DNA from: Amylostereum areolatum
Taxonomy: Eukaryota; Basidiomycota; Agaricomycetes; Russulales; Stereaceae
Reading direction: 5' to 3'
Assembly: GCA_012932865.1 (NCBI GenBank)
Contig: SAXG01000062.1
Coordinates: 124,001 to 188,000, forward strand
DNA: 64,000 bases
Shown here: in pieces, positions 11,031 to 34,300 of the stretch
Position numbering within the stretch: position 1 is the first letter of the stretch
Layout: each line of letters opens with the position of its first letter
The notes under the pieces: model-generated
Database searches by the model: none
Seen by the model: the letters and a program-made list of their open reading frames with translations, nothing else
Told to the model about the DNA's origin: nothing
Position numbers and translations under genes: made by a program

Positions 11031-12047
11031 GCGTACAGTAGGCATCCCGGCTACAGTTTCCCTACTATTGGACTGCGAGTTGAATCTTCTACACTTCATG
11101 CTTAGTACTTAGTTATGCTTATTTGTTGCTTATTTGAATACAATCACCACAGCCTTGCTACTTGAATGAGTGCAATGCACGGGTCTATGCTAGTGCAACA
11201 TACAAAGTGGAAGAGCTTGGCTTCGCGCGAAAGTCGCCTGGGGGGGTGGATGTTGCGATGACATATACTCGAGGAGAACCGAAGGGCTCCTGAAAACTTC
11301 CTTCAGAACGGAGATATAACGAATAAAAGAGCAGCACGCACCGGAATGATCGGGGATGCAGAACGATAGATGACGATAGACGTAAGTTACTGGAATCGTA
11401 AGGTACGAGTTTGGATCGCGAAAGGTTGAGGAAGGTGAGGAAGTCGAGGACTGGCGAGGGAGTTGAAGGTATCCGAGCACTTGGATGCCAAGAGTTCAAG
11501 GACGGGTTCTCTCCATCTCGCTCGCATACTTATGCCTATATCCATCGCATGTCAGACGACAACCCAAACCGCCGTGAAAAATCGATGAGACTCACCAGAC
11601 TGAAACAAAGCGCGCCATCCTCGGCCTACTTAGCATCGTGCGAGGGGCATTGTTTTCAAATCAAGACTGGCTTAGATTGAAAGCGAAGGCGAGAACGGTC
11701 TTGACATGAAAATCAGTGGCCTCCGAGGATGATTGACCTGCGACGCGAGTCGCGACTGCCTACGAGGATCAGAACCCGAGTGAAAATCGGGTACATGACG
11801 TCTGTTACAGTGAGCGGGAGATCGATCGAAGGCTGAAATGCGCGCTGGGGGTCTATGTAGGAGGGAGTGAAGTCGTCGTTGAACGCCAGTGATGATGACG
11901 ATACAGTGTACACTCGACCAGGGCAGGCCCGGCAAGACAATGGGGACCGTGGGAATAGTGTACGGCACGTGCTCCGCAGCCGACCGTCGTGCACGGTGCG
12001 CGGCTACTTACGTCACCGACATTGTGACGGGTTCCAGCTGTTCCGCC
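11031..12047. other. intergenic, possible decayed coding DNA on minus
   Basis: Short minus-strand frames near 11410-11500 include LELLASKCSDTFNSLAS, which resembles the start of an F-box or helical protein, but no gene model could be built. Nothing else is supported. Confidence 0.35.
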
Positions 12048-13111
12048 ATGGTGAGCGTCCTAGTTATCGGAGCTTCAGGTATACCGCATATCTATACTAC
12101 ATTTTTGGATGGAACTGATCGCTTGTAGGCAACGTCGGCTCCGCCGTGATGCGGTCATGCTTGGAGAGAAAGCACGACGTGACTGCGTTCTTGCGTTCGC
12201 CGTCAAAGCTCCCTGAAGATCTGAAGTCACACGTGAACCTGCGCGTCGTGGAGGGAGACGCTACATCGGTAGAGGCGCTTGTCAAGGCAATGTCAGGTGA
12301 GTGTAAAACAGAACGATTGTCTTCTGTTTTAAGTCTGGCTACGAGAGACTAGGTGAGTGAACTTCCTCGAGGTCCCGTACGATTGTGAGTCGTTGACCCC
12401 GATTCGTCCCTTCATACGCGTTTCAAACAGGCCAGGATGCCGTCGTGCAAGCCGCCGTCTACGGCTCGACAATGCCTTGGGGAACTTCCGACAGCGAAAA
12501 AGTCGTCAGGAGCGTTGTTTCCGCTGCGAAGCGGGTCCAGTCTTCCCGCTCTGCAGACGCGCGGACATTGCGGCTGTGGGCACTGTCGGGTCAGGTTCTT
12601 CTGGATATTCCCGAGGGAGGTGGGAAAATCGAGGGCGACATAATCCCTATCCATCCAGAACATTACGCAAACTACGCATACATCCTCCAGAACGCGAGTG
12701 AACTGGACTGGTCGCTGCTGTGTCCAGGCAAAATCGACTATGCGGAGGTGATTGCGCGCATCTCTGTCACAGTGGGCCTCGAGGTCTTCTAACACTCTCT
12801 ATAGCCCGTGGGCCCGGTTGTACGGACAATCGACTACGTCGGCCTATGGCATCGCCCTTCTCTCATTGGTCAAATTCCTTTCATCGGTAAGTCGTCGCTG
12901 CCGCCGTCTGTGGGTCGGTGAGACTTGTGGACCGTCTGGGCTTATGCTTCGCCGCACAGGCCCTGTTTTGAACGTCCTTTACAACTTTTGGTGTCAACGC
13001 CTCTCTTATAAGTCCGTCGGCGACTTCTTAGCGGACAATCTCGGGCCTGGAGGTGATATGCGCGGGAAACGCGTGGGTCTGCTCGAGGATCCGAGAATAA
13101 AAGTGCACTGA
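12048..13111 (+). CDS. NmrA/SDR-like NAD(P)-binding protein
   Basis: Five exons: 12048-12078, 12129-12296, 12431-12747, 12805-12886 and 12960-13111, all in phase, give 249 residues. The N-terminus is a Rossmann fold: VLVIGASGNVGSAVMRSCLE carries the glycine-rich nucleotide-binding loop, split by the first intron. Then come HDVTAFLRSPSKLPED and VRVVEGDAT-like NLRVVEGDATSVEALVKAM, the usual second and third strands of atypical SDRs (NAD_binding_10/NmrA). The later HPEHYANYAYILQNASELDW and SLLCPGKI match the family's substrate-side region. Such proteins bind NAD(P) and act as reductases, epimerases or redox sensors; the substrate cannot be told. The second intron (134 bases) is longer than the others. 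Confidence 0.82.
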
Positions 13112-13516
13112 GCCTTGCAGACCGTTCGAGGTGACTTGCACCGAAATGTATAAGTATCAATGGTTATTGCCTATAAGGGCGCATGTTCTCGCCTTGGGGG
13201 ATTGCGTCAGTGCTCGCGGGAAACACGCCTAGTCAACGTGCAGTCCCCGACGACGTCATGTACGACCTCGAGGCTGACTCGAGGTCGAGTGCACTTTAGA
13301 AGTCTGACACGACGCTTCGCCTGCCCCTAGGTCTGAACCTCTCAAATCGGGCGCACGGAATCCCACAATCACAATCAGCTCGGACAAGCACTGGCTAGAG
13401 TATTTGGAATACTGGTACCGCGATGGCCCTCTGCCCCACCTGCCCGCGATCCTACAAAAGCCCTCACGCTCTGACGTGTGCAAGCCAGTTTCTCTCACCC
13501 TCGTACCGACTTTCAG
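13112..13516. other. intergenic; possible 5' exon of the next gene
   Basis: An open stretch beginning at ATG 13423 (MALCPTCPRSYKSPHALTC) has a CxxC pair, but its link to the following gene is not shown. Nothing else was seen. Confidence 0.35.
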
Positions 13517-14328
13517 ATGTCCAACACTGTCACGATATCCACCCAGCGCAAAACGGTCTCTGCATCTCCGCCTTGCCAGCCATCCCCCAGTCTCCGCTAC
13601 GACGCCGACGACGAAGGCGTGTTCAAGCCTCCCCTCGGCGAGTCGTCCAACCACAATCGCGACATCCTCCCCGGCGACGTACGCGTATTCCTTGTGTCCA
13701 TTGCGCCGCACAATAACCTACCTAGCCCCTGTAGATTGTCCGTAAATCGGCTTCGGGAAATGCACACGTCATGGCCATGCACAAGACCAATTTCACGCAG
13801 CTCAAGGACCGGTTCCGGCCCCAGAATCTCGCCAACGCGAACGCGACATCCACCGCCACCGCCTCTTCCGATAAACCGAGGACCGTCATGTTGACCCCCT
13901 CCACGGCGCGCGTCACCGACGAAGCGCGCCGACTGCTCGAAACGCAGCTGGCGGAGGCGCGTGTCCAGCTCGAGCGCAACACGTCGTACATCCGTTCGCT
14001 CGAGGCGGGCAAGGCGAAGCTCGCGAAGGACCTTGAAGAGCTTTCGCGGGCGGCGCGGAAAGAGCGCGCCCAGGACGTAGAAAGTGAGAATAAAGAAAAG
14101 AAGGCGGCGGAGGCGGAGGCGAGGGCGCGAAGGGCGGAGGAGGCGCTGGAGAGGGAGAAGAGGAGGCGGGAAGTCGCGGAGATCGAGGCGAGGAAGGTGC
14201 GGGCGGAGATGAGGGACATGGGAAGGAAAGTCGAGGATTTGGAGGGGAAATTGGAGGCGGCGGTAAGGGAGAAGAGAGAGATGGAGGAATCGTTGGCGAA
14301 GCTGGCGAGTGGGGACGGGAATCTCTGA
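13517..14328 (+). CDS. coiled-coil protein, full-length member of a local gene family
   Basis: Two exons (13517-13678 and 13735-14328, 56-base intron) give 251 residues. The region around the junction (MAMHKTNFTQLKDRFRPQNL) is shared with the genes at 17114 and 22179 (MAMENPDYKKLKDRVKRQNA and MAMEKTDSKKLKERVKRQNA). Exon 1 has LRYDADDEGVFKPPL, echoed upstream of both relatives. From about residue 120 to the end the protein is one long coiled coil rich in Glu, Lys, Arg and Ala (ARRAEEALEREKRRREVAEI). No catalytic motif is seen. The gene is convergent with F-box copy A. A decayed copy of its 3' half lies beside F-box copy C at 31462-31800, so it took part in the duplications. Confidence 0.65.
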
Positions 14329-14449
14329 CTGGCCCCGAAAAACATCTATCTAATTTCAGATCATAACTTTTATTCACCTCCATGATCTGGTTACAGGCCC
14401 TGTCGTGTTGTGTGAGTAATGCACGTACACGGGGACACGGAGACACATA

Positions 14450-16171
14450 TTATATGCTAAACACATGGACTTTGCGCACTGCTTTCCCGTCCTCTGTCGT
14501 TGCACCTTCCTACGTTCCCCGCACCGCGTAAGTTTTTGCAGAACAGGTGAAAGGCAGTCGACGTACCGGGATTATGATAAGCGCGTCCTCTGCCAGCATC
14601 AAACGTGTCGCACTTTTCACCTCGAAAGGAGGCGCGTATTCGGCGGTCGTGCACTCCAAGAAGGTGTCGATAAACAGATTTTCCGGGTGGTCATCGGATA
14701 GCCATTCCTTCTCGATGCGCCCGGTCAGCGTTTCTGTCCGCGTCCCGGCTTTCGAGGCTCTGCGCACGCGCCAGGGATGGAAGTCGTAAATTTTCATTAG
14801 GTCGGGCTGAACGAGCGTCACGGCGCGACAGCCGCATCCCGTCTCGGCGAGTGAAGAGCCAGAGGGGATTCGTGGCCTGACGAGGATGTTTCCGGGGGCC
14901 CACTCATTCCACGGCACCCTGAGCGGCTCTGGGCCAGTGTCCTTGGAAGATGCACGGGAAGCCGAGATGTACTTCGTTACGACGGATGACAGAATGATAA
15001 ACTCGAGGTCCAGAAGAGCAGATTTGAACCAAAAAGAAAGCGTGCCATGGAGCAGACGAACCTCACTGTGTGAGGAGAAAAAATGGCCTTTGTGCGGATT
15101 TCCTCTCGTCCCTCCAGGAAGCGCACTAAGTGTGGATGTATAATACCTGATGCCATCCCGAAACGGAGGAAACAGAAGGCTGAGGATTTGGTCTTCGGGA
15201 GCGAGTTCCTCTTCTCCTTCAGTAGCCAGGCAATCATAGACCGCCAGGACGGCCCGGGCATCCCCCGTCAGGTCAAGATCCTCAAGCATGAGAACATATC
15301 CGTCCTCGAACAAGCATGGATGAATGCCCCATTCGGCCTCCTTAAAAATCGGATAGTTATGAGGTTCACCGTGTAGAATTATCATAAACCATCAACGCAC
15401 CATCGTGTTTCCCGTGTGCCAATTGTAAACAATAGCACTTGACCCACCCCCGGACGCGTCCGAAAACCCAGAGGTATATTTCCCAAGGACATCCGGGAAT
15501 GGCCCATAATCAAGATCAATGTCGAAGTCCTGTGGCTTCGGATGAGGCAGCCCAGAGGATGCAGAGCGCATTTCGATCCTGATAATATCGATTGGTCCCC
15601 AAGCCCGTCGAGTCATCAGAATCCTACGATCGGTGAAAGAACAGCAGACACGCACCTTTCAACACAGAACATAAGAAGAAGATCCTCAGACGGTTCTATT
15701 AAAACGCGGAACACCTCGTCGGATGGGAATGCCAATCGCAGCGGCCGTGCTTCGACTCCGCGCAACTGCGAAGGGATTTGCCAGATGTGCACAAAGTGCG
15801 GTTCGACGGCCACGAGAAACCCTCCGGACACGACCACGCGCTCGTCCGACCAAGTGAGGGTTCGCTAGGCCGAATGGTACGCGTCGAGATGCCGACCGCG
15901 CTCGACGAGCGAGAGCATGCTGTTTTGTCCGTCTTCCATCCCCGACGCCTCAAGCGCGAGGATGTATTTGAGCGATGTGGTGTTGTCGATCAAGATCTTA
16001 AGCCTCCGACGGGCCTGCAGAAAACAGAAGTCAGTGAGTGCGAAAGCAAAAAATACAGCATGTAAGACTCACCAGCATGCAGGCAACGAGCGTAAAGGCA
16101 TCCAGAAGCTCCAAAACACCAGCGAGGAGCTCAGTTCGAAGTGTCGTGAGTCGGTCGGGGGGTCTAGTCAT
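14450..16171 (-). pseudogene. F-box gene copy A, interrupted by one nonsense codon
   Basis: Five exons (16073-16171, 15656-16014, 15401-15578, 14567-15340, 14509-14450) keep phase over 490 codons. The only defect is a TAG at 15865-15867 (codon 83), where copy C has TGG in YHSAWRTLTW. There is also a 27-base in-frame deletion soon after. The N-terminus has an F-box-like motif (LRTELLAGVLELLDAFTLVACML), which in SCF ubiquitin ligases binds Skp1; the rest would recruit substrate. The third intron ends in AAG rather than CAG, as in copy C. The protein ends VRKVHVFSI, as in the sister copies. With a single lesion, this copy is recently dead, or the TAG is a sequence error or read through. Confidence 0.7.
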
Positions 16172-17113
16172 CTAACCCGCCCGTCAGAACCCTACGGATA
16201 TTTCTCAGATGACCAAAATAACACCCTACCAGGGCCCTACCTTTCGATCAGTATGGTGCATCCGCCGCTTGTGCCACTCAGCTCCGGAAATGCCACTGCC
16301 ACCAATGCTCGGGGTCAGCGAGAGCTGAACAAGTACTGTGTGCCGTAGCCTTTATATTGGATATCCATACCTACAAGTCAGCTGGACTTTATTCGTAGAG
16401 TTTTCGATTGATTGGCGGAATACGGCTGTTGAAGGTGATGTGGAGATGAACGAAGAGGAGGACGGCCCGGGCGGTCGTAGGTAGTCATGGCCATGTATGG
16501 TAACGTGCCCCCATTGTCTTTCGGATCGTAAGTACCTGGTACCGGAACTTACTACCCAGCGTACTACATCATTTCAGACGCGCAAGAAGCAGAAGCAGAA
16601 ATACATTCCGCTTGTCAGAGGTACGTGCGCCGGGATGTGTGACTCCTGCAGCGTCTTCCAAGTCAGAACTGTGCTTGACTGGAAGGGTGGAGTCTGACCG
16701 TTGGATGGACACTAGGTACGTAGATATGAACCGGTGTTCGAGAAGGACACGCCGAGTGAACGTGCCAGCCAGGCGCAGTCCTCGAAGACGTCATGCACGG
16801 TCCCAAGGACAGGTCCTAAGGGGTATTGGGTCCCCGAGGGGAACCTTCATAAACCCGCGTCCTCGGACATGTCCATCCTAACTTCCCTCTATCCGGGGGC
16901 TCGAGATAACTTACCAGCGGAACTCCATCTCTACGTCTCCCCCGTGCTCTCCATCTCTCGCTCGAGCCTGCTCCACGACGCGGATAGCAAGGACGCGGTC
17001 AGATTTCCCATTTGCAAGTCATTGAAACGTGCGCATACCTTTCGTGCCAGACCCGACCTATCACGACGTGCGTAGTCAGTGCGGGTTGCTTGTAAGCCGG
17101 ACGGGGACATATT
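16172..17113. other. arm of the inverted duplication; possible upstream exon
   Basis: This stretch matches 22575-23100 in opposite orientation, for example around 16680-16790 versus 22890-23000. An open frame at about 16863-17024 (SILTSLYPGARDNLPAELHL, then LLHDADSKDAVRFPI) resembles exon 1 of the gene at 13517 and may be an upstream exon of the gene at 17114. I found only a weak splice pair. Confidence 0.5.
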
Positions 17114-17398
17114 ATGGCGATGGAGAACCCCGATTACAAGAAGCTCAAAGACCGGGTGAAGCGGCAAAATGCCGATCCCGCGACCGTGCCCTCCTTCAGC
17201 TACACCAGCACCATCACTAGCACCAGCACCAGCAACACCAGCACCAGCAGTAGCGCGAATACGAGCACAAACACGAACACGACCACCTCTACTAGCACGG
17301 AGACACCCGCTACGACAGTCGAAGGATCGGGCGGAGAAGCCGCGGGAGGCTCTGAAGGTGAAGAAGAGGAGGAGGGAAGTAGCAGTGCGCTGAAGTAA
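17114..17398 (+). CDS. short Ser/Thr/Asn-rich protein of the local family
   Basis: The ATG at 17114 gives 94 residues: the shared N-terminus MAMENPDYKKLKDRVKRQNA, then ~50 residues of Ser, Thr and Asn repeats (STSNTSTSSSANTSTNTNTT), then an acidic tail (EGEEEEEGSSSALK). The in-frame TAA six codons upstream supports this start unless an exon is spliced in. Its mirror partner is the minus-strand gene at 22179-22574. The two lie on opposite sides of FIG4 as parts of an inverted duplication. No function is recognised, and the low-complexity tail is probably disordered. Confidence 0.6.
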   Translation: MAMENPDYKKLKDRVKRQNADPATVPSFSYTSTITSTSTSNTSTSSSANTSTNTNTTTSTSTETPATTVEGSGGEAAGGSEGEEEEEGSSSALK

Positions 17399-18582
17399 TA
17401 GGGCGACTGGTGAGGTCGGCGAACGGGGATGGGGATCTGGGAAGATCACCAAGTATGTGATCGGGTGGCAGGTGATTGTCCGCTCGTTTTCGATTTAGCG
17501 AGCGTTTGAGGGGCGGTCCCTTTCAATGGGGTTCATACTGTCTATTCGTCGATGAACTTAGATACGGTACATTCTACCTCGTACATATCTGCGTCGCGGG
17601 AAAACTTAGCCTGGTACATATATCAAGATTTTGTATGGGAAAACATACAACTTTACGAGAGCACACACACTAGGAGTACTCGCGTCGACGACACAGGGCG
17701 TACTCGGAGGGCACCGAGCGTGGAGGTGTAGGGGTGGGCCAAAGGACCTGTCTGGCCTCTCTGAAGTCGTCGTCCTCGCGTTCCTTGGCGGCCGCGCGAT
17801 GGCGGTCTTCAGACGATGCCCCTGAGCATTCTGCACAATATAAGATAGTCGGCGGACGAACCCTCGGAGTATGTGCTCGACTGAGAACTAGCAGGATGAT
17901 ACGGATGAGAGCACTGTGGGTAAGGGAGGGCCATGGGTGCGATGAGACGGTGGGCAGCTACTGAACAACTCCCACACCTGAGTTGGATCTTTTATACTCC
18001 CCCGGGCCCTCCATTTCGGGAGGCGTCCGAGTATAACAGGGAAAAACATAGCCTCAGCCAAAGATGATGATCATATGCCACGTACCGAACACAAAACTGG
18101 GGCTTCGAGTGCTTGGAGAGGAACAGTTCATCATATCCTAGCGACCATGAGTGCCCGATGGGTGCCTTCCCGACAGCAGTACTTACGCATAGCCCATCTT
18201 CACCAGTAGGTATGTTCTCCCCTCTCGGCGCCGAGGACGCGTGTACTGTTCAGAAGAGGAGACTAGGTTTACCACATCAGTTGCATGTCCTTTGCTTGGA
18301 ACTGTCAGGAAAGGGCCGGTGTTTGCGTATACCAATACTTACACTGCTTGGTAGCTGTGAGGCGGGTGTGGTTTTTTCCCTGTGCTCGAATTTGCTAGAG
18401 AGGTACGCCATGTTCTGAAAGACAGCGGAAGCATCGCAGATTCGCAGTATCGAACAGTGGGCAGAAGAGCGTGGCTGCGAGAACGGTGATCACGGTATGA
18501 AAGCGAAGAGGAATTCGAGCGCGCTGAGCGGCCGACGATATTCCAACTTGCTTCCCACCCTCATGGGCTCGCGCTCGTCGAC
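17399..18582. other. duplication arm end and intergenic DNA before FIG4
   Basis: The mirror-image similarity to the other arm ends near 17690 (CTAGGAGTACTCGCGTCGAC here; related reverse sequence at about 22020-22050). The rest has no supported gene and presumably holds the FIG4 promoter. Confidence 0.45.
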
Positions 18583-21500
18583 ATGGACGACAGCGCCTCC
18601 CCGCCGTCCACTTCCCAACAACCACAATCCAATGGTCTCGGTCTCCCATCACCCATGACGTCTCGCCCAACGTCGACCAATGCGTCCACGACTACCCTAG
18701 CTCCTCCTCCGCCCCTTCCTTTCGCCGCGGTCTCCCACTCCCAACGCACACGAGTGCTCTCCGGGGACGCCCTCGGCTTCAACAAGTTCATTCTATACGA
18801 GAACAAGTTACGTTTCTACATCGTCGCCTCCAACACGTCCGAATCCCACCACCGCATCGTCAAGATCGACCGCACCACCCTCGAGGAGCTCGATGTCGTC
18901 GAAGACGAGGCTATGTACACCGGGAGGCAGATGACGGACGTGCTCAAGATGATCGAGGAGGGAAATAGGGCCGCCGGTGGACTCAGCAAGCCGAGGGTGT
19001 TCTTCGGGCTTGTAGGTACGTCCCGTTCATCTTGTTTGGTTGGCAACGAAACCTGACCTGGTGAAGGGTTCGTCAGATTCACCGCGGGATGGTACATGAT
19101 CCTCATCACGAAACGCTCGCCCGTTGCGCTCCTCGGCGGCAATTACATCTACCACTGCGAAAACACCGAGGTCGTGGCCGTTCCCTCAACGCACAAGATC
19201 GAGCGACCAGCGGAAGAGCAGCGCCTCATGAACATTTTCAAACAGGTCGACATGTCCAAGAACTTCTACTTCAGGTGCGAGCGGCCCGCGAACTCATGTT
19301 CAACCGCAGGAACTGACCGCTCGAGAATAGTTACACCTACGACGTGACGTCGACGCTGCAGAACAACCTTACTCTAAGGAATCGGATGTCAGAGGGAAAG
19401 TGGCCTTTCAGCGACCGCTACGCGTGGAATTACCACATGTTCGCCGCGGCGTTCGAGGACCAGGAGAAAGTCACGGCGCGCGCGCATTGGGTGCTTCCTC
19501 TTATGCACGGACATGTTGACCAAGCCAGTGCGTCCCTTCCTCTTTTCACTGCCGCGAGTGTATATTGACTTCTTTCAGAACTGACGGTGCTAGGGCGCGT
19601 TATCTACGTTACGCTGATTGCACGCAGGTCGCGTCATTATGCCGGTGCGCGATATCTGAAGCGTGGCGTGAACGAGGAGGTGCATATATCCTTGTTTTTA
19701 CTTTCTATCCTGGTGCTGACGTTCTTTGCTTCGTAGGGTAACGTCGCCAACGAGGTCGAGACAGAACAGATCGTCTCGGAGGCGCTCACAACCCCGTTCT
19801 CCTACCCAGGACACACCGCCTCGGCAGAAAGACGTCCAAATCCGCGGTACACAAGTTATGTCCAGGTTCTTTTTCTCACTCACGCCACGCGGTACCCGTC
19901 ACTGATCAAGAAGTAAAGTACCGTGGCAGCATCCCGATCTACTGGACACAAGAGCTCAATTCTATGAGTCCTAAACCTCCCATCGAAAGTATGTCTTCCA
20001 CCGGTCGTTGACTTTCCCTGGTAACTCACCAGCATGTCCGGCCAGTCAGCGTCGTGGACCCTTTCTTCACCGCCGCGGCGCGCCACTTCGATGACCTTTT
20101 CGCGCGGTACGGTACCCCGATCACCATCCTGAACCTCATCAAGAAACGCGAACCGGTCCCGCGCGAGAGCAAGCTCTTGGACGAATACACGCACTGCGTG
20201 AGCTACCTCAACCAGTTCCTCCCTCCGGAACGGAAGATGGTCTACGTCGCCTGGGACATGTCGCGGGCGTACAAGGAGTAAGTCCACCCTCTCTTTACGA
20301 AGATCAACCCTGACTGGTCGATGGACAGGAAGACGCAAGACGTGATCAGCTATCTGGAGGACCTGGCCGAGGAATCCATCCAAATGACGGGGTTCTTTCA
20401 TTCCGGACCCGAGCCCTACGCGCACCACTTGCACGGGCGCGACAGGTACTCTTCCCGTCGCAAATCCTTGCTTGCTTTCTGAACGCTCACGCGAAGCACA
20501 GTCCCATATGGCGCAAGGATATGCTGCTCCAGAACGGCATCTGCCGCACCAACTGCGTCGACTGTCTCGACCGGACGAACGCCGCGCAGTTCGTGTTCGG
20601 GAAGCGCGCGCTGGGGCATCAGCTGTACGCCCTCGGCGTCGTGGACACGCCCGACCTCGCGTTCGACTCGGATGCCGTGAACATGCTGACGGAGATGTAC
20701 CACGATCACGGCGACAGTAAGTCCTTCTTTCTACAACATGCGAGCGTATGCTAACGAATCATCAGCGTTGGCGTTGCAGTACACGGGGAGCGCGCTGGTC
20801 AACCGGGTGGAGACCTATAGACGGATGCCGCACTGGAATAGCCACTCGCGGGACATCATCGAGAACTTCCGGCGGTTCTACACCAACTCTCTCCTAGGTT
20901 TGCGCCTCTCGCTCTTCCTTCTCAGCCCCCTTTCCTTCTAACTTCCCAATTCCAGATGCGGACAAGCAAACCGCGATCGACCTATTCCTCGGTATTCGAG
21001 CCGACCCAAGGGGCCACCCGCCAACGCGAGGCGGATACCGTGACTGGTACCGGAAGGACCACCTTGAATCGGCGTACGTCCTCGACGCGTGCCGTGAGGG
21101 CATCCAGTGCTTTGTCGAGAGCTCCGCTGGGTTCTGGTCGGAGTATTACCGTCCGCTGCTGTTCACGTCCCTCGGGAAGCACTTTGCGTACCTGATGAAC
21201 AGCACGCTCAAGCTGCCTGGGTGCGTTTCCTTCGCTGTCTTCCAAGGGGACGTGATGTTGACCGCGACGAGTAGGAAGACATTGAGGGACGTGAACCAGA
21301 GTCCGTTTCAGCCGCATAGGCTCGCTGGAAACCCAAGGTCTGTCCGCTTTCTTTTCCCAATCTGTGGGCGGACATGGGGTTGACAGGAGGATAGGATCAT
21401 CGACAACGTCCGACGGCTCATGGGCGCGGAGAGCAAGCGGTCCGCGCGTGAGGACCTCTTCAAGCCCGCGGTGCCGACCAAGGCGCGTTCGACGGAAGGC

Positions 21501-21883
21501 TCCGTGGGCACGGAGAGCACGTCGTGGCTCGAACCAGTCGTGCCCGAGGAAGAAGAAGAGGAGTACCAGCAGTACGTTTTCCGCCCTCCTACGCCTTCTT
21601 CCCTCCACGCTAACCTGTTCCGCGCAGGTACGTCGATCAATGCCTGGGGATATACGAAGATGAAGCGGGTCCGGCCCGGAAGGACGTCGAGAAGTACGAG
21701 TCGGCGGTGGCGTTGGGGCACGGCCAGCGCATGGAGGTGAGCCGTGCGGACGAGGACGAGGTCAACGAGGTCAGCATCGAGCTATTCTTCAAACGGGCGA
21801 TGCCGGATGTGCCCGTGGAAGAGGGTTGGCCGAATCCGTTCAATTATGAGAAATGGGTGAGGGGCGCACCGGGGAAGCAGTGA
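18583..21883 (+). CDS. FIG4: SAC-domain phosphoinositide phosphatase, FIG4 orthologue
   Basis: Thirteen in-phase exons (18583-19015, 19067-19274, 19331-19527, 19579-19679, 19737-19865, 19919-19988, 20046-20277, 20329-20445, 20502-20716, 20766-20897, 20956-21337, 21395-21571, 21628-21883) give 882 residues, close to yeast Fig4. After a Ser/Pro-rich leader the SAC domain starts at [19 protein letters not shown]. The catalytic motif [12 protein letters not shown] is intact, with nucleophile Cys514 and Arg520 of CX5R. Fig4-type blocks such as [15 protein letters not shown] and [18 protein letters not shown] are present. Fig4 removes the 5-phosphate of PI(3,5)P2 on vacuolar/endosomal membranes in complex with Fab1 and Vac14. 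No trans-membrane helix is seen, unlike Sac1. The gene occupies the spacer between two mirror-image duplicated arms. Confidence 0.95.
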
Positions 21884-22178
21884 CTGACTTTGCTGGAGGT
21901 TGTTAGGGAAGGAGGGAGGATTCGGCGTCATGGCGGGGTAGAGAGCTCACCCAGTTGGAGTTTCGTGACACAAGCGCTGGAAGCGCTAGTACCGGTACTT
22001 TATTCAACTTAGTATGCGCCCGCCGCCATGTCGTTGATGCTAATACTCCTAGCTTCAACCGTATAGCAGTATGTTTCCCACGTGTATGCTTCATATACCT
22101 GGCTAACCTTTCTCGCGATGCAGGTATGTACGATATAGAGTTTACCGTGCACCATCAAAGTCCATGATTGTATAGGCA

Positions 22179-22574
22179 TTATGCACCGAAAAGCGACTGC
22201 TCTTCAACAGACATTTTCTGACCCGGCCGAGCTTTCATTAAAAACCCATATCCCCGCCAGACTCCTTCCCCGCTCGCTGACCTGGCCAATAGCCCCTTTG
22301 CACTGCTCCCTCCTTCAACCTCTTCATCCTCAGAGACTCCTCCAATTTCTGCGCCTCCGCCGACGCCTGCTGGGGTAGGGGCTGGGTCACTGGTAGTAGA
22401 GGTAGAGGTGGTGGTGTTCGTGTTTGTGCTCGTGTTCGCACTGGTGCTCGTGCTGGTGTTGCTGGTGTTCGTGCTGGTGTTCGTGCTATTGTTGGTGGAG
22501 GGTACGGTCGGCTCGGCATTCTGACGTTTCACCCGCTCTTTGAGCTTCTTGGAATCGGTCTTCTCCATGGCCAT
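22179..22574 (-). CDS. Ser/Thr/Asn-rich protein, mirror copy of the gene at 17114
   Basis: The ATG at 22574 gives 131 residues. It has the shared N-terminus MAMEKTDSKKLKERVKRQNA, a central Ser/Thr/Asn repeat (NTSTNTSNTSTSTSANTSTN), then acidic and glycine-rich sequence and a further 40 residues (YGFLMKARPGQKMSVEEQ) that the partner at 17114 lacks. A preceding exon is suggested by the open stretch at about 22670-22725 (LAISRSSLSYGADRKNIVNY), similar to exon 1 of the gene at 13517. No domain recognised. Confidence 0.6.
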   Translation of the reverse strand: MAMEKTDSKKLKERVKRQNAEPTVPSTNNSTNTSTNTSNTSTSTSANTSTNTNTTTSTSTTSDPAPTPAGVGGGAEIGGVSEDEEVEGGSSAKGLLARSASGEGVWRGYGFLMKARPGQKMSVEEQSLFGA

Positions 22575-23470
22575 AATGCGTATTGCGATCTACGCACGTC
22601 ATGCGTGGTGGGGAAGATATAGCATGAGAGGTATGCGCATGTTTCGATAACTCACAAATGGGATAATTGACGATGTTTTTTCTGTCAGCGCCGTAGCTCA
22701 GGCTCGAACGAGAGATGGCTAGCACGGGAGAGGCGTAGGGACGGAGTTCTGTTTGTGGGTCACGGTGGTGGCAGACGCCTGAGCTTCGAGAACGAGGAAG
22801 TTGGGTTGTGCACGTTCAACGACATGGGTTTTTGAAGGGCCTCGAGGGCCCGGTACCACTTAGGACCTGTGCTTGGGACCGTGCATGACGTCGTGGGGAA
22901 CTGCACCCAGCGGGCACGTTCACTCGCTTCTCGAACAACGGTTCACATCTATCTATCCATCCATCCGACAGTCAGATTCCACCCTTCCAGTCAAGCACAG
23001 TTCTGACTTGGAAGACGTCAAATGAATTCTGCAATTCGCGGCGTGCCTACCGCTGTCTTTTTTCTACTTCTTGCGTTGTTCTTGTGTGTCTGAGGTATGT
23101 AGCAGGACACTAAATAGTACCGGTAGTGTACGACTCCGAGCCGAAAGACAAAGGGGGTCACGTGACCATGTACGGCCTTGGCCCTCCCCTTCGTTCACCT
23201 CCACATTGCCTTCAACAACCGTGCACCATCAGTCAATCAACAAGTCCACGCGTAACGTCGAAACACTCCCCAGGACATAGTATTCAACGTACCGTGTGCT
23301 GCGTTCTCAGTATTCGTTCAGTACTCCCTGACCCGAGTCCAACTTTGGTGACAGTGGCATTTGCCAGCGGCGTTGAGTGGCACAAGCGACGGAAGCTCCT
23401 CGCGAAAGGTGGGCGGGAAACCACATTTATCGTTTTCGAGAGATCTGAAAATTGCTAACACACGTTTTAG
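22575..23470. other. duplication-arm intergenic DNA
   Basis: It mirrors 16172-17113, for example the block around 22890-23010 with a short TCTATCTATCCATCCATCC run. It contains the likely promoter of F-box copy B and the possible upstream exon of the minus-strand gene. No other gene. Confidence 0.5.
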
Positions 23471-25247
23471 ATGGCTAGACCCCCCGATCAACTTACCACA
23501 CTTCCGACTGAGCTCCTCACCGGCGTTTTGGAGCTCCTGGATGCGTCTACACTCATTGCCTGCATGTTGGTGAGTCTTTCACACCGTTGTATGTGTATAT
23601 TAAGCTGGTGTCTTATATTCCTCGCAGATCTGTCGGCGGCTTAAGATCTTAATCGACAATACCGCGTCACTCAAATACATCCTCGCGCTCAATGCATCGG
23701 GGATGGAAGACGGGCGAAACAGCACGCTCTCGCTCATCGAGCGCGGTCGGCGTCTTGACGCATACCATTCGGCTTGGCGAACTCTTACTTGGTCGGACGA
23801 GCGTGTGCTTACCTTCCCGGGCCGTGCGGATCGTGTGTATGTCTGGAGGATTCCTCGTGGCCGTCGAAAGGCATTCTGTGCACATTTGGCAAATTCCTTC
23901 GCAGTTGCGCGGAGTCGAAGCACAGCGCTGCGTCGATTGGGCGTTTCCCTTCCAATAATGTGCTTGCGATTTCAATCGAACCGGAGGAGGACCTCCTTGT
24001 TATATTATGTCGCCTGAAAGGTACATGTTTTCTATTCTCTCGTTGACCGTAGGATTCCACTACGGGCTTCTCGACAACGTCGTCAGATTTGTACTTGCGC
24101 TCTGCATTCTCTGGGATGCCTCATCCAAAGGCACATATCTTCGACATTGACTTTGATACTATGCATCCAGATGTTCTGGGAAATCTCGTTGTGTGGTTTC
24201 TGCATCAGGCAAAGCTGGGCTGATGCCACCATCTACAACTGGTACACTGGACGAGAGTGGGTGGGTGCATTGATAGTATGTTATATTTGCCTTGAGAGTG
24301 TTGACGTTAAGTAAACCTGTCAGTTGTTGTTCTGGCCCTGGATCTATGCTTGCTAGATGGTGGATATATCCTCACATTCGAACATGACATAGATGGGGGC
24401 ATTGTCCTAGTGGTCTGGGAAAGCTCTGCATGGAACGCAGGCACCGACGTTCAGCCCGATGACCATGTCGTCGCTCTCCTTTTGCCCAAGTTCTGGGACA
24501 GTGTGGCTAGCTGCGACTTCTCCGTCGACGCATTTCCCGGAGGGACGCGAGGAACTCCGCAAAGCGGACACTTCTTCTCCACGCACGCTGTTCGTTTGCT
24601 CTCCGCCACGGTCGATTTCCACCCTTCCACCCCCACAGAAGAAGAAGAGAGGGAAGCACGGGCCCACGTTCCGAAACTCGAGTTCACCTTTCCGTCAACC
24701 GTGATAATGGATTACATCTCCACTGCCCGTGAATCTTCCGACGACACTGATTCAGACTCTGGCTATCATACCATCCCGTGGAACGAGTGGGCTCCCGGAA
24801 ACGTCCTTGTCACTCCTGTCTGGGAGTCCTCCTCCAGAGCATCCTTCTTCAAGACGGGATGCGACGGTCGCGCCCTGCAACTCATTCAACCCGACGTGGT
24901 CAAAATCTACGACTTCAACCGCCTGCGCGTGCGCAACGCCTCAAAATCAGGCACCCAAACAGAGACGATCACAGGACGTATCGATGTGGACTGGCTGGAG
25001 GATAGCTACGAGGACGTGTTCGTCGAGACGTTCTTAGAGTGCACGGCCGCCACCTACAAGCTTCCTTGCAAGGCCGATAATATGGATGTGAGACTGGCAG
25101 AGGACGCGCTTATCCTGATCCCGGTACGTCGTCCCCGCTCAGTGCTTGGTCTGTACTGAAGAGGCTGATATTTCGTGGTGTGTATAGAAAGATACGGAAA
25201 CCGAGGACGGGAAACGCGTGCGCAAAGTGCGTATTTTGAGCATATAG
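23471..25247 (+). pseudogene. F-box gene copy B, frameshifted in the middle
   Basis: Exon 1 (23471-23569) and the start of exon 2 (from 23628) are intact (TLPTELLTGVLELLDASTLI, then RRLKILIDNTASLKYILALN). Compared with copies A and C the frame shifts near 23830, again near 23950, and the segment around 24060-24300 is eroded, with a stop after HQAKLG. The 3' half (24350-25128) is a long clean frame containing PWNEWAPGNVLV and ETFLECTAATYKLP. A last intron joins KDTETEDGKRVRKVRILSI, the family's C-terminus. The intact 3' half could be expressed alone from ATG 24350, but a decayed full-length gene is the simpler reading. Confidence 0.7.
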
Positions 25248-25641
25248 GATGTAGGATCAAGTGCGTGTAGGGGTGAGATTGTGCGATTGCCGGGGGCACC
25301 ACCACTTAAGCTTTCAATATATGAATGTTCAAGAGGGCCTGGCTCAACCGTACCGCAACCGCGATATGCAGGCATCTGCAGGATGGGACTTTTTCGTTGG
25401 CGGAAGTTTCCAAGGCGTGCTCGATCTGCAGACGATTGTGGGTAAGTGAACAAGGGCCCTCGAGAGTCTCTGTTGCCAACAACGAGTACTACAAGTCAGA
25501 TACATGTACACGGAAGTCCAGTTGTCCACTGCGGATTTCGGGAATGAGGCACCAGTAAGTAACAGAAAATACATATTGGGAGGGAATACATGCGAACGGT
25601 CGTAAAGCGTCGTAAGTCGGTAGCGTGGAAATCGAATAGGT
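25248..25641. other. short convergent intergenic region
   Basis: It lies between F-box copy B and cupin 1, which face each other. Only short open frames, no supported gene. Confidence 0.5.
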
Positions 25642-26745
25642 TTACAGCTTGATCTGGGTCACCTCCGCACGCGCGGCGACGAACATGCCGTTCACACCGC
25701 GCTTCGCAGGAGCGGAAGGGTACGCTGCGTACGTCGACGTCGGCTTCGGCTTCGCGCTGGAGCTGTAGCCGGCGGTGTTGATGCTGGGAGGGTACGCGTT
25801 CCCGGAGTCGCGCGGCTGACGCTGCGCGGTGGGCTGGTTCCCGCGCTGAATTCCGCAACGCTGGAGACATTCATCAACACCCAGGGCGACATTATCAGGG
25901 ATCTGGCCGACACAAAGAAAACAAAAATTAAGTCAAGGGTTGAGCTCGATGAGAGAGGTGGGATCGGAACGGACCTTCGACTCGAGGTCGTAGATCTGCT
26001 GCACGCCGAGACCGCCGAGGGTGGCCCCGACGATGTCCGGGGGAAGGCCGAAGTCTGGGATAGATGGGATATGGCATAAGCACGGATATATGTGAGCAAA
26101 GTGGGGGGAAGGTTCGCGTACAGCGCTGCGCGACCTGACTGACGCCCGGGTCCTCGTTGTTGAAGCCCGCGACGAACATCGCGGACTCGCAACTCGGGTT
26201 CATCTCGAAGTGGATCGCGCCCTGGGGGAAGACCGTGGCCGACCCGGGCGCGATGTCGATCTCGATGAAGCGCGCGCCGTTCTCGACCAGGACGCCGCCG
26301 CGGAGGGTGGTGTTCAGCGAGAAGTTGATCTCGGTCGCGCGCGGGTGCGTGTGGGGGGTATTGATGCCGCAGGGACCCAGGAATCCGATCGCTGTGCAGG
26401 TACGGCCATTCGTGCGTCAACGATCCGTAGGATAAAGGAAGTGGGAAGGGGGAGGGGGGGGAGGTGCGTACTCATGGATACACCGTTCCCTACCACAGCG
26501 GGGAAGTTCTCGGACGTGGCGGCGACGGTGTGACCGCCTGCGCCGGTGGTGACGCCAACGGCAGAGGGCGGGTTGACGAAGTCGAAGAGGAATTGCTCAT
26601 CCGAGAGGAGACGGAGGCGGTCGACCTCGGTCGGCGCCAGACGCAGTTCGCCGACGAGCTCTGCAACAGATGACGCGGTACTGCTCTGCGCCTTGACCGT
26701 GGACGATGCGAGAAGTAGAACGCTAAGTGTGGCGAAGGAGAACAT
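25642..26745 (-). CDS. spherulin/germin-like secreted cupin, copy 1 (intact)
   Basis: Four exons (26472-26745, 26122-26391, 25975-26054, 25642-25902) in phase give 294 residues. MFSFATLSVLLLASSTVKAQ is a signal peptide. The cupin core has PHTHPRATE (His105, His107, Glu112) and FPQGAIHFEMN (His152), the usual metal ligands of Cupin_1 domains. The C-terminal third is Ser/Pro/Lys-rich. Members include slime-mould spherulin and plant germins; fungal ones are extracellular or wall-associated, sometimes Mn-dependent oxidases, with activity unknown here. A TATA box lies about 135 bases upstream (26881-26890). An inverted second copy is at 30164-31283. Confidence 0.88.
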
Positions 26746-26890: not shown

Positions 26891-28282
26891 GTCTTTTGGG
26901 GGGAGTCCCGGGAAAAAAGTAATGCATCCCCTTCCGTGTAAGTTGTGGTTAGGCTGTACATCCGTCCGATCCCTGAGATGGAGGCCGTTTCGAACGCACG
27001 GCGCGCGTTCAAGGTTCAAAGACCCTTGAACGTCATGGACGCCGCTCGCATAACCAGAGCGCTACACCGCTTGCAGAATACGTCGAGAGATTTGAGCTGA
27101 AGATGCTGGGCTAGAAATGTGGTACAGACAGGGTCCTCGGACTTCATGACCAATGGAGGTTAACGGCGTTGCTGTGGAAGATGCTCGAGACGCCTAGACG
27201 GATAGTAGTGGTGGTTTATCCATCCAGAGAGGGTGTTCTGCGGCCGTGGTTATGTGGTGTTTCGCCTTGAAAGAAGAGGACGGAGACATATTCAGTTCAT
27301 ATGAATGCGGGGTGGATCTTGAAAAGCTTGCAAGACGTGTACTGAATACAGTGACCGCATGCTTACGCTCGTGGGCCCGTGGCCCCGTTCCGGACTAACC
27401 CATTGCATGGGCAAGCCACCTGGAGAGATTTCTTGAAGACTTTTGTACGCAATAGCAGTTGGCAGGTAAACGTCTTGAGGGGAGCGTGCAAGCGAGGGTT
27501 CGGAGCTGGGTGAAATCTGAGAAGAGGATGCCACCGCGTGAAGCAAATAGCAACGCTGGCAGAAATGCTCCGGTATTTGCCGAAAGCTCTTGTTCTCCCC
27601 CTCCGACCTCGAACCTGCCGTACTACGACAACGCAAAACAATATCCCCATTGCCAGTGCTCGAAGAGGACCCTTATTCCACACCGCATACGCCTTATATC
27701 TCACCACAATGCGTAGCCAGGACAACGACGCCGCCCAACTTTAACCACTAGGCGCAGGGAAGCCAGTTGCGGCCTGCACGGTCCTCGCACAGCTTGAGCC
27801 AAGTTCTTGAAGTCGGTCTCTGTTTGAAGGAAGCCGGGTGACTACCCAATGGACGACTCAAAACGTCCGGGGAGAGCCCTCTCCCAAGTAGAAACCCTCA
27901 GCTTTCGTGCTTTACCGTCACCATTTCCAGGAACGCACCTCCCAAGCTTCTCTCCGGCCCACGCTCACGAGCAACAATGAAGGTACGTATGTAGTTCTCC
28001 ACGGTACGATTTCGGATCGATACGAGTATCTCCTTCTCCGGTGCCGCGCTTTGACCGTACCACACCGCTCCTGCAGTAGGTTCGCCTCGCTTCATCACCC
28101 GCCCCACCGTGCCTCAAGCAGCCGGGAATGGTAGCAATTTCGACGAGTCGCCACCGGGATAGAGGCGGGGAGGCGGTAGCCTCCGCGTGGTATTGTTCCA
28201 ATGGAGAGAAAAGGGCGGTGGAGGGTACAAAAGGGTGAAGGTGTGTGCATCCCCTTTCGTACACCATCCCCCACTTACATCC
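26891..28282. other. intergenic; possible relic of a membrane protein
   Basis: A minus-strand frame at 27363-27725 contains YKAYAVWNKGPLRALAMGIL, which looks like one helix of the multi-pass membrane proteins common in Agaricomycetes, but the surroundings are not coding-like. No full gene. Confidence 0.35.
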
Positions 28283-28947
28283 ATGCCCGCGTCTCCTTCC
28301 ACAGGGCGCTCTTCGCGCAGCACCTCCGTTCCGCCCTCCCCACTCAACGCCACCTTTCCCGAACGTACAAAAGCCTCTACACATCGCACGACCTCTCATC
28401 CTTCTCATCCTAGTTCTGGGGGCCACGGGCCACGTCCAACCCCCCCTTCGACGGCCCGTCGTCGCGTCGTGCAAGGCGGCCATTCGCATTGCAATCACTC
28501 CCCAGCCGCCAGCGCGACAAACACCGCTGCGGCTCTAACCCCATACGATGCTCACCATGACGCTCGTTCATCGAACACCGGTCGCCACACGGATCACTCT
28601 GCGACTCACGGCAGCAGGCGTCAGTCATTGGTTCCGCAACAACAGGCTCTATGCGTCGACCCATCTCGCAGCCGTAGCACCCTTCCAAGCACGGTTCTGA
28701 GCACCCCTGATTCGACCGCGGCCGCGGGCTCCCTTGAGCGTTCCACTGCTGCAAACCTCGCGCGCGCGCGCGAAGAAGCCGACTTTAGAGACGCCACCAG
28801 ACTCCTTTCGAGCGAGAACTATCTACCGAAATCGCGGGCAACGCATTCGGTCTATGCTTTGTCTCGTCGACACCAACACGGAACGTGATTGTGTGCGTGG
28901 ACGAGTCGACGACTGGGGTCAAGCATCATAGGGTACGATCGACGTAG
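28283..28947 (+). CDS. hypothetical Ser/Thr/Pro/His-rich protein, model uncertain
   Basis: The ATG at 28283 follows an ATCC context and opens ~200 codons of Ser, Thr, Pro and His-rich sequence (MPASPSTGRSSRSTSVPPSP). The 3' end is better explained by a splice: after an acceptor at about 28790 another frame reads TPFERELSTEIAGNAFGL, then VCVDESTTGVKHH, to a stop at 28945-28947. The donor was not identified. It lies in the spacer between the two cupin copies. No domain. Confidence 0.35.
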
Positions 28948-30163: not shown

Positions 30164-31283
30164 ATGTTCTCCCTCGCCACGTTCACCGCTCTCCTCCTCG
30201 CCGCGTCCTCCGTCAAGGCGCAGACCACGGCCTCGGCTTCGTCCGTCGCTGAACTCGTCGGACAGCTCCGCCAGGCGCCCACCGAGGTCGACCGCCTGCG
30301 TCTCCTCTCGGACGAGCAGCTCCTGTTCGACTTCATCAACCCGCCTTCCAGCGTCGGCTGTCACCACCGGTACCGGCGGTCACACCGTGGCTGCCTCGTC
30401 GGAGAACTTCCCCGCCGTCATCGGTAACGGTGTATCCATGAGTACGTCCTCTCCTTCCTCCCATCCCAAACCCTCCTCTCATCTCCCTCTCTCAACCCAC
30501 AGCCATCGGCTTCCTCGGCCCCTGCGGCATGAACTCGCCCCACACGCACCCCGCGCGCGACCGAGATCAACTTCTCGCTGAACACCACCCTCCGCGGCGG
30601 CGTCCTGGTCGAGAACGGCGCGCGCTTCGTCGAGGTGGACATCGCGCCCGGATCGGCCACGGTCTTCCCTCAGGGCGCGATCCACTTCGAGATGAACCCG
30701 AGTTGCGAGCCCGCGATGTTCGTCGCGGGCTTCAACAACGAGGACCCGGGTGTCAACCAGGTCGCTCAGCGCTGTACGCACGCCTTTCCCTTCCCTGTCT
30801 CGTGCTGTGTGCTTACGCGATCACTCATGCAGACTTCGGTCTCCCCCCGGACATCGTCGGCGCCACCCTCGGCGGTCTCGGCGTGCAACAGGTCTACGAC
30901 CTCGAGTCCGAAGGTCCGTTCTCATGCCCCCCGCTCCCACCACCCATATCCCCATCCTGAAATAAATCACCTTGCAGATCCCCGACAACGTCATTCCTTG
31001 GTGTCGATGAGTGCCTCCAGCGCTGCGGCATCACGCGCGGTGACCAGCCCACCTGCTCAGCGCCAGCCCCGCGTAGTCCGCCAACGCGTACCCGTCCAGC
31101 ATCGTGACCAGCGCCGCTCCCAGCGCGACTGCGACTGCCACCGCCACCGCCACCTCCACACCCTCCGCCTCCGCCTCCGCCACGGCATCGTCCAACGGCT
31201 CCTCTTCCTCCGAGGAGAAGCGCGCGCCGGAGCCGGTCGTCACGAAGAGGGCGGGTGCCGTCGAGTCGTTCCAGCTTAGGTAG
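30164..31283 (+). pseudogene. spherulin-like cupin copy 2, several single-base indels
   Basis: It starts like copy 1 (MFSLATFTALLLAASSVKAQ; LSDEQLLFDFINPPSSVG). The frame then breaks by one extra base near 30360 (GGCTGTC for GGCGTC), again near 30553 (CACCCC for CACCC, within HTHP), again near 30994, and at least twice more near 31050-31080. Between the breaks the cupin core (VENGARFVEVDIAPGSATVF, QGAIHFEMN) is well conserved. Introns near 30440-30502 and 30774-30830 match copy 1. The C-terminus reads KRAGAVESFQLR and stops at 31281-31283. Because indels recur across the gene, decay is more likely than a single consensus error. The promoter TATA is kept. Confidence 0.78.
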
Positions 31284-31461
31284 AGGGTGTTGAATGCTGG
31301 GGTGTTTTGTGGGATTTTTTCGGTTCGGGGTTCGTGAAAAGTTTGGCTTTTGTTATCTTACGTCGTTGTGTAATATGATCAGGGTTTCTGGTCGAACTTG
31401 AAAGTGGGAGGCGCGCATAACAGTAAGTTGATAGTCGTACGGTAGTACTACATACTCGGTC

Positions 31462-31800
31462 GCTGTCAGGGTCGGTTACGACAAGGCGACGCTCGTGGGA
31501 GGCCTTGAAGAGCTCTCATTGGGAGACCGCACCGAGGACGTAAGTTATGTAGAAAGCGAAACCAAAGAGAAGAAGGCAGCGAAGGTACGAACGATGGTGG
31601 AGGTGTTGAAGAGGAAGAGGATGCGAAATGGAGTCGAGATTGAGTCGAGAAAGGTTGAGGACCCTTTGGAGGGAAAATTGGAGGTGGCGGTGAGGGAGAA
31701 GAGAGGGGATGGAATAGTCGTTGGTGAAGCTGGCGACTCGGAGCGGGAACGGGAGCCTGACAGGATCAAAAAAACATCTACTCGACTTCAGATCATAACT
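31462..31800 (+). pseudogene. decayed 3' copy of the coiled-coil gene
   Basis: The sequence matches 14003-14345: LEELS, VESETKEKKAA, EGKLEVAVREKR correspond to LEELS, VESENKEKKAA, EGKLEAAVREKR. The shared downstream bases (AAAACATCTA, TTTCAGATCATAACT-like) show that the duplication included the 3' flank. The 5' half, with the conserved N-terminus, is missing. Confidence 0.75.
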
Positions 31801-31898: not shown

Positions 31899-33730
31899 CT
31901 AAATGCTAAGAACATGGACTTTGCGCACTTCTTCCCCTCCTTCGATCTCTGCATCTCTCTGTGTACCGCCGCACCGCGTGAGATGTTGCGGAGCAGATGT
32001 GAAACTGAAGGGAAGACCGACGTACCGGGAATATGACGAGCGCGTCCTCCGCCAACATCAAATTCGCCACACTGTCCACCTCGAACGGAGGCGCGTACTC
32101 GGCGGTTGTGCACTCCAAAAACGTGTCAACGAACACCTCCCCCGAGCGGGCAGCGTCGGACCGCAGCCATTCCTTCTCGATGCGCCCCGTGAGCGTCTCC
32201 GTCCGCGCCCCGGCTTTCGCCGCTCTGCGCACACGCCAGGGATGGAAGTCGTAGATTTTGACGAGGTCGGGTCGAACGAGCTCCAGGGCGCGACAGCCGC
32301 ATCCCGACTTGGGAAGGAAAGGGCCGGAGGGGACCCATGGGGCAGGTCTGAGCAGGACGTTTCCGGGGGCCCACTCGTTCCACGGGACCTCGAACGGCTC
32401 TGGACCAGCGTCCTCAGAGAATGCCCGGCGCCGGCGGGAAGCCGCGATGTACTTCGCCACGACGGAGGACAGGATGAGAACCTGGAAGTCCGGCACAGTC
32501 TTGCGTTGGGCTGGCGCCGCCGGCCTCCCTCCTTCCTGGCAGAAGGTCGGGAGCACGGTGAAATCGGGGTAGAGCTCGATCGTGGACGCGAAGGAGGCGA
32601 ACGTCGCTCTGGGCGGAGAAGAAGTGGCCGCTGTGCGGGTTTCCTCTCGTGCCTCTGGGGGATGCGCCGAACGAGGAGTCGTGCGAGACGCCGTGCCGAA
32701 ACGCGGGGAGAAGAAGGGAGAGGATTTCGTCTCCGGGGGAGAGATTTTTTCCCTCGTCGATGGCCAGGCAGTCGTAGACCACCAGGGCGCCATCCCCCGT
32801 CGCGTTGACGTGCTCAAATACGAGAAGATATTCGTCTTCTAGCAAGCATAGATCGATGGCCCATATGACCTCCTTCGAACCTGGTTCAGTCATTCTCGAA
32901 ACCAGGGCAGAGCATAGGCAGACCGTCCACGCACCATCTTGTTTCCGGTGTGCCAATTGTAAACGGTGGCATAGCCTGAGGGCCCGCCCTCGTCCGAAAA
33001 TCCGCAGATAAATTTTCCCAGGACGTCGACTGGGACCGTAGGATCAAGCTCGACATCGAAGATCTGCGGCTTTGGATGCGGCAGCCCAGAGGAGGCAGAG
33101 CACAGTTCGATCCTGACGAGATAGGTTTGTCCCCAAGCATCAGAATACAGTACGGTGGGCGAGAGAGCAGCGAACACGCACCCTTCCTCACAGAACATGG
33201 CAAGGAGATCCTCCGACGGTTCGATCCAGACGCCGTGCACCTCGTCGGAAGGGAACTCCAATCGCAGCGGCGGCCGAGCATCGACTCCGCGCCACTTCGA
33301 GGGGATTTGCCAGATGTGCACAAAAGGCGGCTCGACGGCCACGAGAAATCCTCCGGACACAAACGCGACCGCGTCGCCCGGGAAGGTGACCACGCGCTCG
33401 TCCGACCACGTAAGGGTGCGCCAGGCCGAATGGTACGCGTCAAGACGGTGAGCGCGCTCGATGAGCGAGAGCGTGCTGTTGTGTCCGTCTTTCATCCCCG
33501 CCGCCTCGAGCGCGAGGATGTATTTGAGCGACGTGGTGTTGTCGATCAAGATCTTCAGCTTCCGACAGGCCTGCAGGACACAGAAGTCAGCGAGCGCGGA
33601 AGCGCAAACGACAGCCTCACGTGAGACGCACCAGCATACAGGCGACGAGCGTAAAAGCATCGAGAAGCTCTAAAACGCCTGCGAGGAGCTCAGTCGGAAG
33701 TTTGGTGAGGCGATCGGGGGGTCTAGTCAT
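31899..33730 (-). CDS. F-box protein, copy C (best preserved)
   Basis: Exons 33632-33730, 33182-33570, 32935-33112, 32588-32872, 32026-32535 and 31899-31958 keep phase and give 506 residues. The F-box is LPTELLAGVLELLDAFTLVACMLACRKL (first ~38 residues). Downstream, VSGGFLVAVEPPFVHIWQIP and FPSDEVHGVWIEPSEDLLAM look like beta-propeller-type strands, and the C-terminal half contains PWNEWAPGNVLLRP and TFLECTTAEYAP. The model needs one intron with a weak donor (32536-32587, GTCCAC...CAG). Otherwise this copy has a +1 frameshift there. F-box proteins bind Skp1 in SCF ubiquitin ligases; the target is unknown. It is convergent with the coiled-coil relic, as copy A is with the intact gene. Confidence 0.72.
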
Positions 33731-34300
33731 CTAACAGGTCCGTCAGCGTACTGCGAATCTTGCTCTCCGCTGCGTGTCATAGACTCACGGTGCCACTCAG
33801 TCCGTCAATGCCACTGCCACCAATGCGCCGGGTCAGTGAACACTGAACGAGTGCCGCAGCCTTAACGTCGGATGTTCTTACCTGAGAATTGGTTCTACGG
33901 TATGTTCAGGATTATCGATTGACTGGTGGAGGCCGGTTGTCGAAGGCAAGGTGACCGAAGGAGAGGACGGAGGATGGCGGTTGCAGTCAACGCGATAGAG
34001 TATATGGTCACGTGCCCACATCGTCTTTCGGATCGTACCGGTTGGTATCAAAGTATATTCTTCTCTGTTACAGCGATACATGGACGTTTGAGACTTTAGC
34101 GTGAGAGCGGACGAATGCAGGGTAAGAAGGGTCGTGTAGGAACTTGAGAGGGGGGGGGGATATGCGGTCGACGCGGCGACGGAGCAGGTAGGGGAGGGTG
34201 TGACGGGCAAGAACGATCCGTTATGGAATATATCGTATGCCAGTCGAAAGGAAAGCGACCCGTCGACGAAAGAAGGGAAGAAGAAGAGAGGCGAAGGAGC
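33731..34300. other. upstream region of F-box copy C
   Basis: Similarity to the region upstream of copy A continues to about 34050 (TCTTTCGGATCGTA is shared near 34030 and 16520). The rest is the SPT4 3' flank. No gene. Confidence 0.5.

Follow-up and report, generated by a model that had tools for sequence, protein, structure and literature searches.

In a window of 64,000 nucleotides from the fungus Amylostereum areolatum (contig SAXG01000062.1, here C142, positions 124001-188000, in a genome of 57.1 Mb on 182 contigs), a block carrying an F-box gene occurs three times within approximately 20 kb, as copies A (minus strand), B (plus strand) and C (minus strand). Between A and B lies FIG4, a gene for a phosphoinositide phosphatase. 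This arrangement is, very probably, an old local segmental duplication, by now partly decayed, of an F-box block that is restricted to its lineage, with copies that alternate in orientation and one of them inverted across FIG4.

The first two copies had been described in a first-pass annotation of this DNA as a large, diverged inverted duplication with FIG4 in its spacer. This description was correct; the segment at 14.42-17.69 kb is mirrored at 22.03-25.28 kb. In a self-comparison by BLASTN, two inverted matches (15478-17440 against 24184-22257, 69.5% identical over 2058 columns, and 14559-15015 against 25131-24669, 70% identical) have expectation values (E) <= 3e-51, and a shorter one connects 17530-17619 with 22187-22093. 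A restricted comparison adds 14445-14497 against 25252-25200 and 15050-15120 against 24601-24534. These collinear matches run from 14445 to 17619 against 25252 to 22093, with coordinate sums of 39651-39717, which give a centre at 19,826-19,859, inside FIG4 and where the annotation had placed it (about 19.85 kb). This count excludes three short off-centre matches between the A and B sides (12456-12504 / 25434-25387, 13238-13264 / 22906-22880, and 13771-13812 / 22574-22533), whose sums lie near 36,144-37,891. The register is good; it is not "perfect," as had been claimed, since the coordinate sum drifts by up to 66.

Alignment of the arms leads to the same picture. In a global alignment, similarity spans approximately 14418 to 17689. 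The local alignment score is 946 when arm B is flipped, 26 when it is not, and 23-30 in all ten block-shuffled controls. Identity between A and B is 48-88% per 100-column block. The DNA between the F-box gene and its neighbor, a short gene rich in serine and threonine (Ser/Thr; the S gene), is mirrored as well, as the annotation had proposed; here, blocks are 56-88% identical, about equal to the coding blocks, and the non-coding stretch 16721-16820 is 88% identical to 22951-22859. Thus, in the self-comparison, similarity is not confined to the F-box coding parts and the arms do share a centre. Homology runs in register across several genes and the non-coding DNA that separates them, as is expected for a local segmental duplication.

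The A/B pair is, however, not the whole of the locus. The first-pass account, accurate for this pair, left out a third copy (at 31.6-34.0 kb) and a pair of cupin genes. Copy C is a direct repeat of A, with identities of 73.9% over 850 columns, 74.9% over 1182 columns, and 67.9% over 265 columns; compared with B it is inverted, and 68.4% identical over 1769 columns. The cupin genes, D and D', are inverted with respect to each other and 78.8% identical (matched stretches 25.78-26.75 and 30.16-31.10 kb). This makes a second mirror, having its centre at ~28.45 kb for D/D' and at 28.57-28.60 kb for B/C. The sharing of neighbors is patchy. A and C share a unit called X, degraded in C; the cupin gene is common to B and C, and the S gene to A and B, with no S gene recognised beyond copy C. 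The features are collected in Table 1.

Table 1. Features of the duplicated locus (window coordinates)
Feature	Coordinates	Strand	Basis
Unit X, outer side of copy A (185-amino-acid open reading frame 13771-14328)	13187..14328	+	tblastx; list of open reading frames
Arm A of inverted duplication	14418..17689	.	self-comparison and arm alignment
F-box gene copy A	14453..16171	-	exon 2 nonsense codon on three contigs; open C-terminal exon, 291 amino acids
Ser/Thr-rich orphan gene Sa, 94 amino acids	17114..17398	+	ends from sequence; translation
FIG4 (phosphoinositide phosphatase), in spacer	18583..21883	+	PDB match of one piece; ends by eye
Arm B of inverted duplication	22033..25279	.	self-comparison and arm alignment
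Ser/Thr-rich orphan gene Sb, 131 amino acids	22179..22574	-	open reading frame and translation
F-box gene copy B	23471..25247	+	exon 2 frame change in window allele, one frame on C121; end by eye
Cupin gene D, outer neighbor of copy B	25648..26745	-	Pfam Cupin_1, E 8e-15 (25931-26416); ends from open frames
Cupin gene D', inverted copy of D	30164..31283	+	Pfam Cupin_1, E 2e-9 (30533-31276); ends from open frames
Unit X, degraded remnant beside copy C	31447..31770	+	DNA and tblastx comparison
F-box gene copy C (31909-33730) with upstream DNA, direct repeat of A	31909..34037	-	self-comparison, alignment, tblastx

Copy A is closer to its direct repeat C than to its mirror image B, and A/B is therefore not a special mirror built around FIG4. 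At 851 sites that vary in the three-way comparison, agreement is 42% for A-C, 24% for A-B, and 23% for B-C. In a tree of the C-terminal protein parts (8 rows), A is joined with C at 95/99, with B and the protein P0002 from Amylostereum chailletii outside at 87/86; the branches between copy C and an A. chailletii protein 94% identical to it are 0.015 and 0. If the root of the tree holds, the mirror-image copies A and B would be more distantly related than the direct repeats A and C.

Pooled synonymous divergence (dS) is 0.61 for A-B, 0.54 for A-C, and 0.69 for B-C, which makes the copies old. The pooled ratio of non-synonymous to synonymous divergence (dN/dS) is 0.46 for A-B (438 codons), 0.36 for A-C (395 codons), and 0.45 for B-C (392 codons), values that show purifying selection during part of the history of the copies. 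These values come from five hand-chosen exon pieces, for which contig C121 supplied exons 2 and 3 of B and the window its exon 4; exon 2a entered the A-B dN/dS with both B alleles.

The locus is found on three contigs (C142, C121, and C81), where the other versions are ~97-98% identical to the window, as expected of separately assembled haplotypes. C81 (15,667 bp) is 98.6% identical to C121 with 98 gap openings, and probably represents the C121 haplotype with lower accuracy. These versions allow the lesions in the F-box genes to be compared. Exon 2 of copy A contains one TAG codon on C142, two on C121, and two on C81; the A. chailletii protein P0003 lacks the residues around this TAG, as if a gene finder had spliced round the stop. 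In exon 2 of copy B, the window allele has a frame change and C121 a single frame; the many small gaps and stops of copy B on C81 are taken as sequence errors. Compared with the A. chailletii protein P0001, copy C shifts frame once, in the fourth exon. The C-terminal open reading frames remain open in A (291 amino acids) and in B (269 amino acids). A mid-gene frame break in A and B was also considered as a lesion and rejected, since the annotated A. chailletii proteins have an intron at this point.

The proteins have an N-terminal F-box (Pfam PF12937, cut-off 24.3) that scores 25.7 bits in copy C, spliced and with its frame change read through, and 30.6 bits in the C121 allele of B, these being the two copies submitted to the test. 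Like F-box-domain proteins in general, they have related loci elsewhere in the genome (at 28-41% identity, among 56 matches in all, for example on C99, C120, C139, C96, C104, and C177). They differ in their C-terminal parts, which matched no Pfam family, and in the scarcity of their relatives. Among the 7994 candidates that shared most words with it, the copy C protein found relatives at E <= 0.001 only in three A. chailletii proteins (94%, 53%, and 53% identical). Because each of these three lies on a contig of 38,666 bp, they probably lie on one contig. By these protein similarities, the window would belong to A. chailletii or to a very near relative (Russulales, Stereaceae).

Two of these relatives behave differently. 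P0001 is nearly identical to copy C. P0002, compared with the C121 allele of B, is 97.7% identical over residues 34-166, 90% over 164-232, and 76% over 222-492 (by another program and against copy B, 95%, 95%, and 77% for the three parts), and in the last alignment block just 27 of 51 residues agree. For the C-terminal part of P0002, the best match in the genome is copy B itself, at 77%; among 436 candidate proteins, no relative but itself was found at E <= 0.001. P0002 could be a divergent allele; it could also be a chimera of the assembly, or have arisen by exchange with a copy that was not seen.

Gene conversion between the copies might, of course, keep parts of the arms alike, and a locus evolving in concert would then take the place of one that simply diverges. 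We consider this unlikely, though less so than the other alternatives. In its favor, dS is uneven between segments (0.14-0.50 in exon 2, 0.81-1.32 in exons 3 and 4a, 0.50-0.64 in 4b), one non-coding block has the 88% identity given above, and the identity of P0002 to the C121 allele of B falls along the protein. Further, between 23700 and 23900 the two alleles of B show differences at 19 aligned sites, as against 2 in 22000-23700; of these 19 sites, copy A matches the C121 allele at 11 and the window allele at 4. However, in a run test on the 851 variable sites with 2000 shuffles, the longest shared runs were no longer than in shuffled data (p 0.38 for A-B, 0.35 for A-C, 0.86 for B-C). Constraint alone may account for the similarity in exon 2 and in the intergenic block, and no donor was seen in the genome for the C-terminal part of P0002.

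The contrast between P0002 and P0001 invites a second alternative. Because P0002 combines a copy-B N-terminal part with a strongly divergent C-terminal part, while P0001 is close to copy C, one might see here an F-box locus that is diversifying rapidly beside its divergently oriented Ser/Thr orphan, with copy B receiving new C-terminal halves from both inverted and direct copies. We hold this to be improbable. Were it true, the contrast is one that diversifying selection on a recognition locus might produce.

The first-pass annotation had also suggested that recombination between the arms might invert the FIG4 segment. Here, ectopic recombination of the arms would flip the segment between strains or nuclei, a live switch that now appears highly improbable. 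It has geometry on its side, with two inverted arms of ~3.2 kb flanking ~4.3 kb, and in this it resembles the long inverted repeats that recombine to give inversion isomers. It differs in that the arms are strongly diverged. Identity is ~70%, the two longest inverted stretches that match exactly measure 40 bp and 28 bp, and the near-identity over hundreds of bases that characterizes a recombinationally active inverted repeat is absent. Strongly diverged arms with such short exact stretches would rarely recombine. Further, the stretches matching window 11761-28113 on C121 and 12297-28113 on C81 are collinear with the window and in its orientation. On each of the three contigs with the locus, FIG4 and both its flanks are therefore oriented alike, and no alternative orientation of the spacer was seen on these contigs of this assembly, which probably represent two independent haplotypes. 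Inversion of FIG4 between the arms is thus not supported.

Last, the mirrored arms could be two opposite insertions of one transposable element, as the differing orientation of the copies would allow; this is the least credible of the alternatives, as the arms contain F-box genes with introns and, of 17 genome matches to arm A, 14 fall within the versions of the locus on C142, C121, and C81, with the other three being stretches of 45-57 bp in repetitive Ser/Thr sequence. This search skipped very common words and scored its best candidates (13 of 13), and is therefore not a full copy count; within it, the copies are confined to one locus and not dispersed, as a local duplication would have them.

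We therefore prefer local segmental duplication, because coding and non-coding DNA match in register and a third copy exists, and because A and C are the closest pair, the F-box family occurs elsewhere in the genome, dS makes the copies old, they carry lesions, and relatives are present in A. chailletii. Three copies in ~20 kb, in register, with unequal retention and lesions, are what local tandem or inverted duplications leave behind; the differences here are the alternating orientation and a conserved FIG4 in one spacer. Alternating orientation with a conserved gene in the spacer is not new in kind. The duplicated block would have consisted of a fast-evolving F-box gene, a divergently transcribed short Ser/Thr orphan, and neighbors on the outer side of the F-box gene. 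Copying in inverted orientation would most likely have come about by template switching or end joining during repair. FIG4 would lie between A and B since one copy was placed, inverted, on its other side. The copies would then have diverged, each keeping different parts, with A and C splitting after B and with the parts now missing from individual copies once present. Under such a duplication, nothing would act on FIG4 today.

Several points weigh against this reading. The copy tree was rooted on one distant paralog, and its root depends on that single long branch (2.24). The constraint on the proteins (dN/dS 0.36-0.46) means that "decaying" need not fit every copy, and the frame changes in C and in the window allele of B may be sequencing error. 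The dS for A-B is uneven (0.35-0.44 in exon 2, 1.19-1.20 in exons 3 and 4a, 0.50 in 4b), so that no single age applies, and the copies may have exchanged sequence later. The neighborhood of FIG4 was compared among this genome's own contigs only.

Other observations concern the neighbors. No Pfam family scored above cut-off in Sa or Sb. Four collinear tblastx pieces (E 3e-13) match unit X to 16711-17429, which makes it a diverged copy of the S unit in direct orientation; as a query, unit X matched one protein (P0004, 41% over 72%). The first of the off-centre matches (12456-12504 / 25434-25387; 49 bp, 80%, E 2e-5 in a restricted search) is suggestive, and only suggestive, of a remnant, beside copy B, of the gene at 12.45-12.80 kb, whose 115-amino-acid frame matched no Pfam family. 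A cupin copy on the outer side of A (to 5 kb) was considered and rejected; tblastx cupin matches at 5.8-6.7 kb reach E 1e-7, and the frame there, 314 amino acids rich in Pro, Tyr, and Ser, is by eye no cupin.

FIG4 itself was recognised from a piece (20500-20718) that matches the "Fig4 Sac homology model" (PDB 7k1w_F, E 2.7e-24) and gave no Pfam match. The annotation had called it single-copy, which holds for the intact gene; FIG4-like pieces, 86-90% identical, are present on C6, C15, and C108 (loci L028-L030). They lack the equivalent of window 19684-20904 and smaller parts, and are nearly identical to one another (L028 and L030 are each 99.6-99.7% identical to L029).

The haplotypes differ in other ways. 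C121 and C81 lack a stretch of 61 bp that the window has at 16471-16531. Loss from the other haplotype is likelier than insertion into the window, because copy C has sequence resembling this region that extends up to 34037. Window DNA of ~2.5 kb (8693-11193), 0.7 kb (5176-5917), and 0.5 kb (4319-4865) is without a counterpart in place on C121; these gaps, within 4319-11762, are presence/absence differences between haplotypes. C121 and C81 end at the same base, window 28113. For 28114-42561, which holds the Spt4 and PIGA genes, no second allele was found in the parts searched, and C18 carries the other allele again from ~42561; this probably reflects a collapsed, locally identical stretch or the end of a phase block. 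Elsewhere in the window, a repeated element of ~1.2 kb (40693-41905) has 20 further listed stretches, 17 at 95-100% identity and three at 80%; two of the 20 stretches, both on C105, may be one copy. Overlapping, tandem-like direct repeats appear in the self-comparison at 3551-4295 and 37626-37887, and Rfam gave no match in the window at its gathering threshold. Nothing on this locus was found in the titles and abstract openings of the papers that the literature searches returned.

A clear mirror pair, then, may be two of three or more paralogous copies, and a mirror centre may fall within a housekeeping gene without having any significance for it. Read as a duplication, the locus shows a lineage-restricted F-box block of a basidiomycete spreading and diverging via local copying, in alternating orientation.

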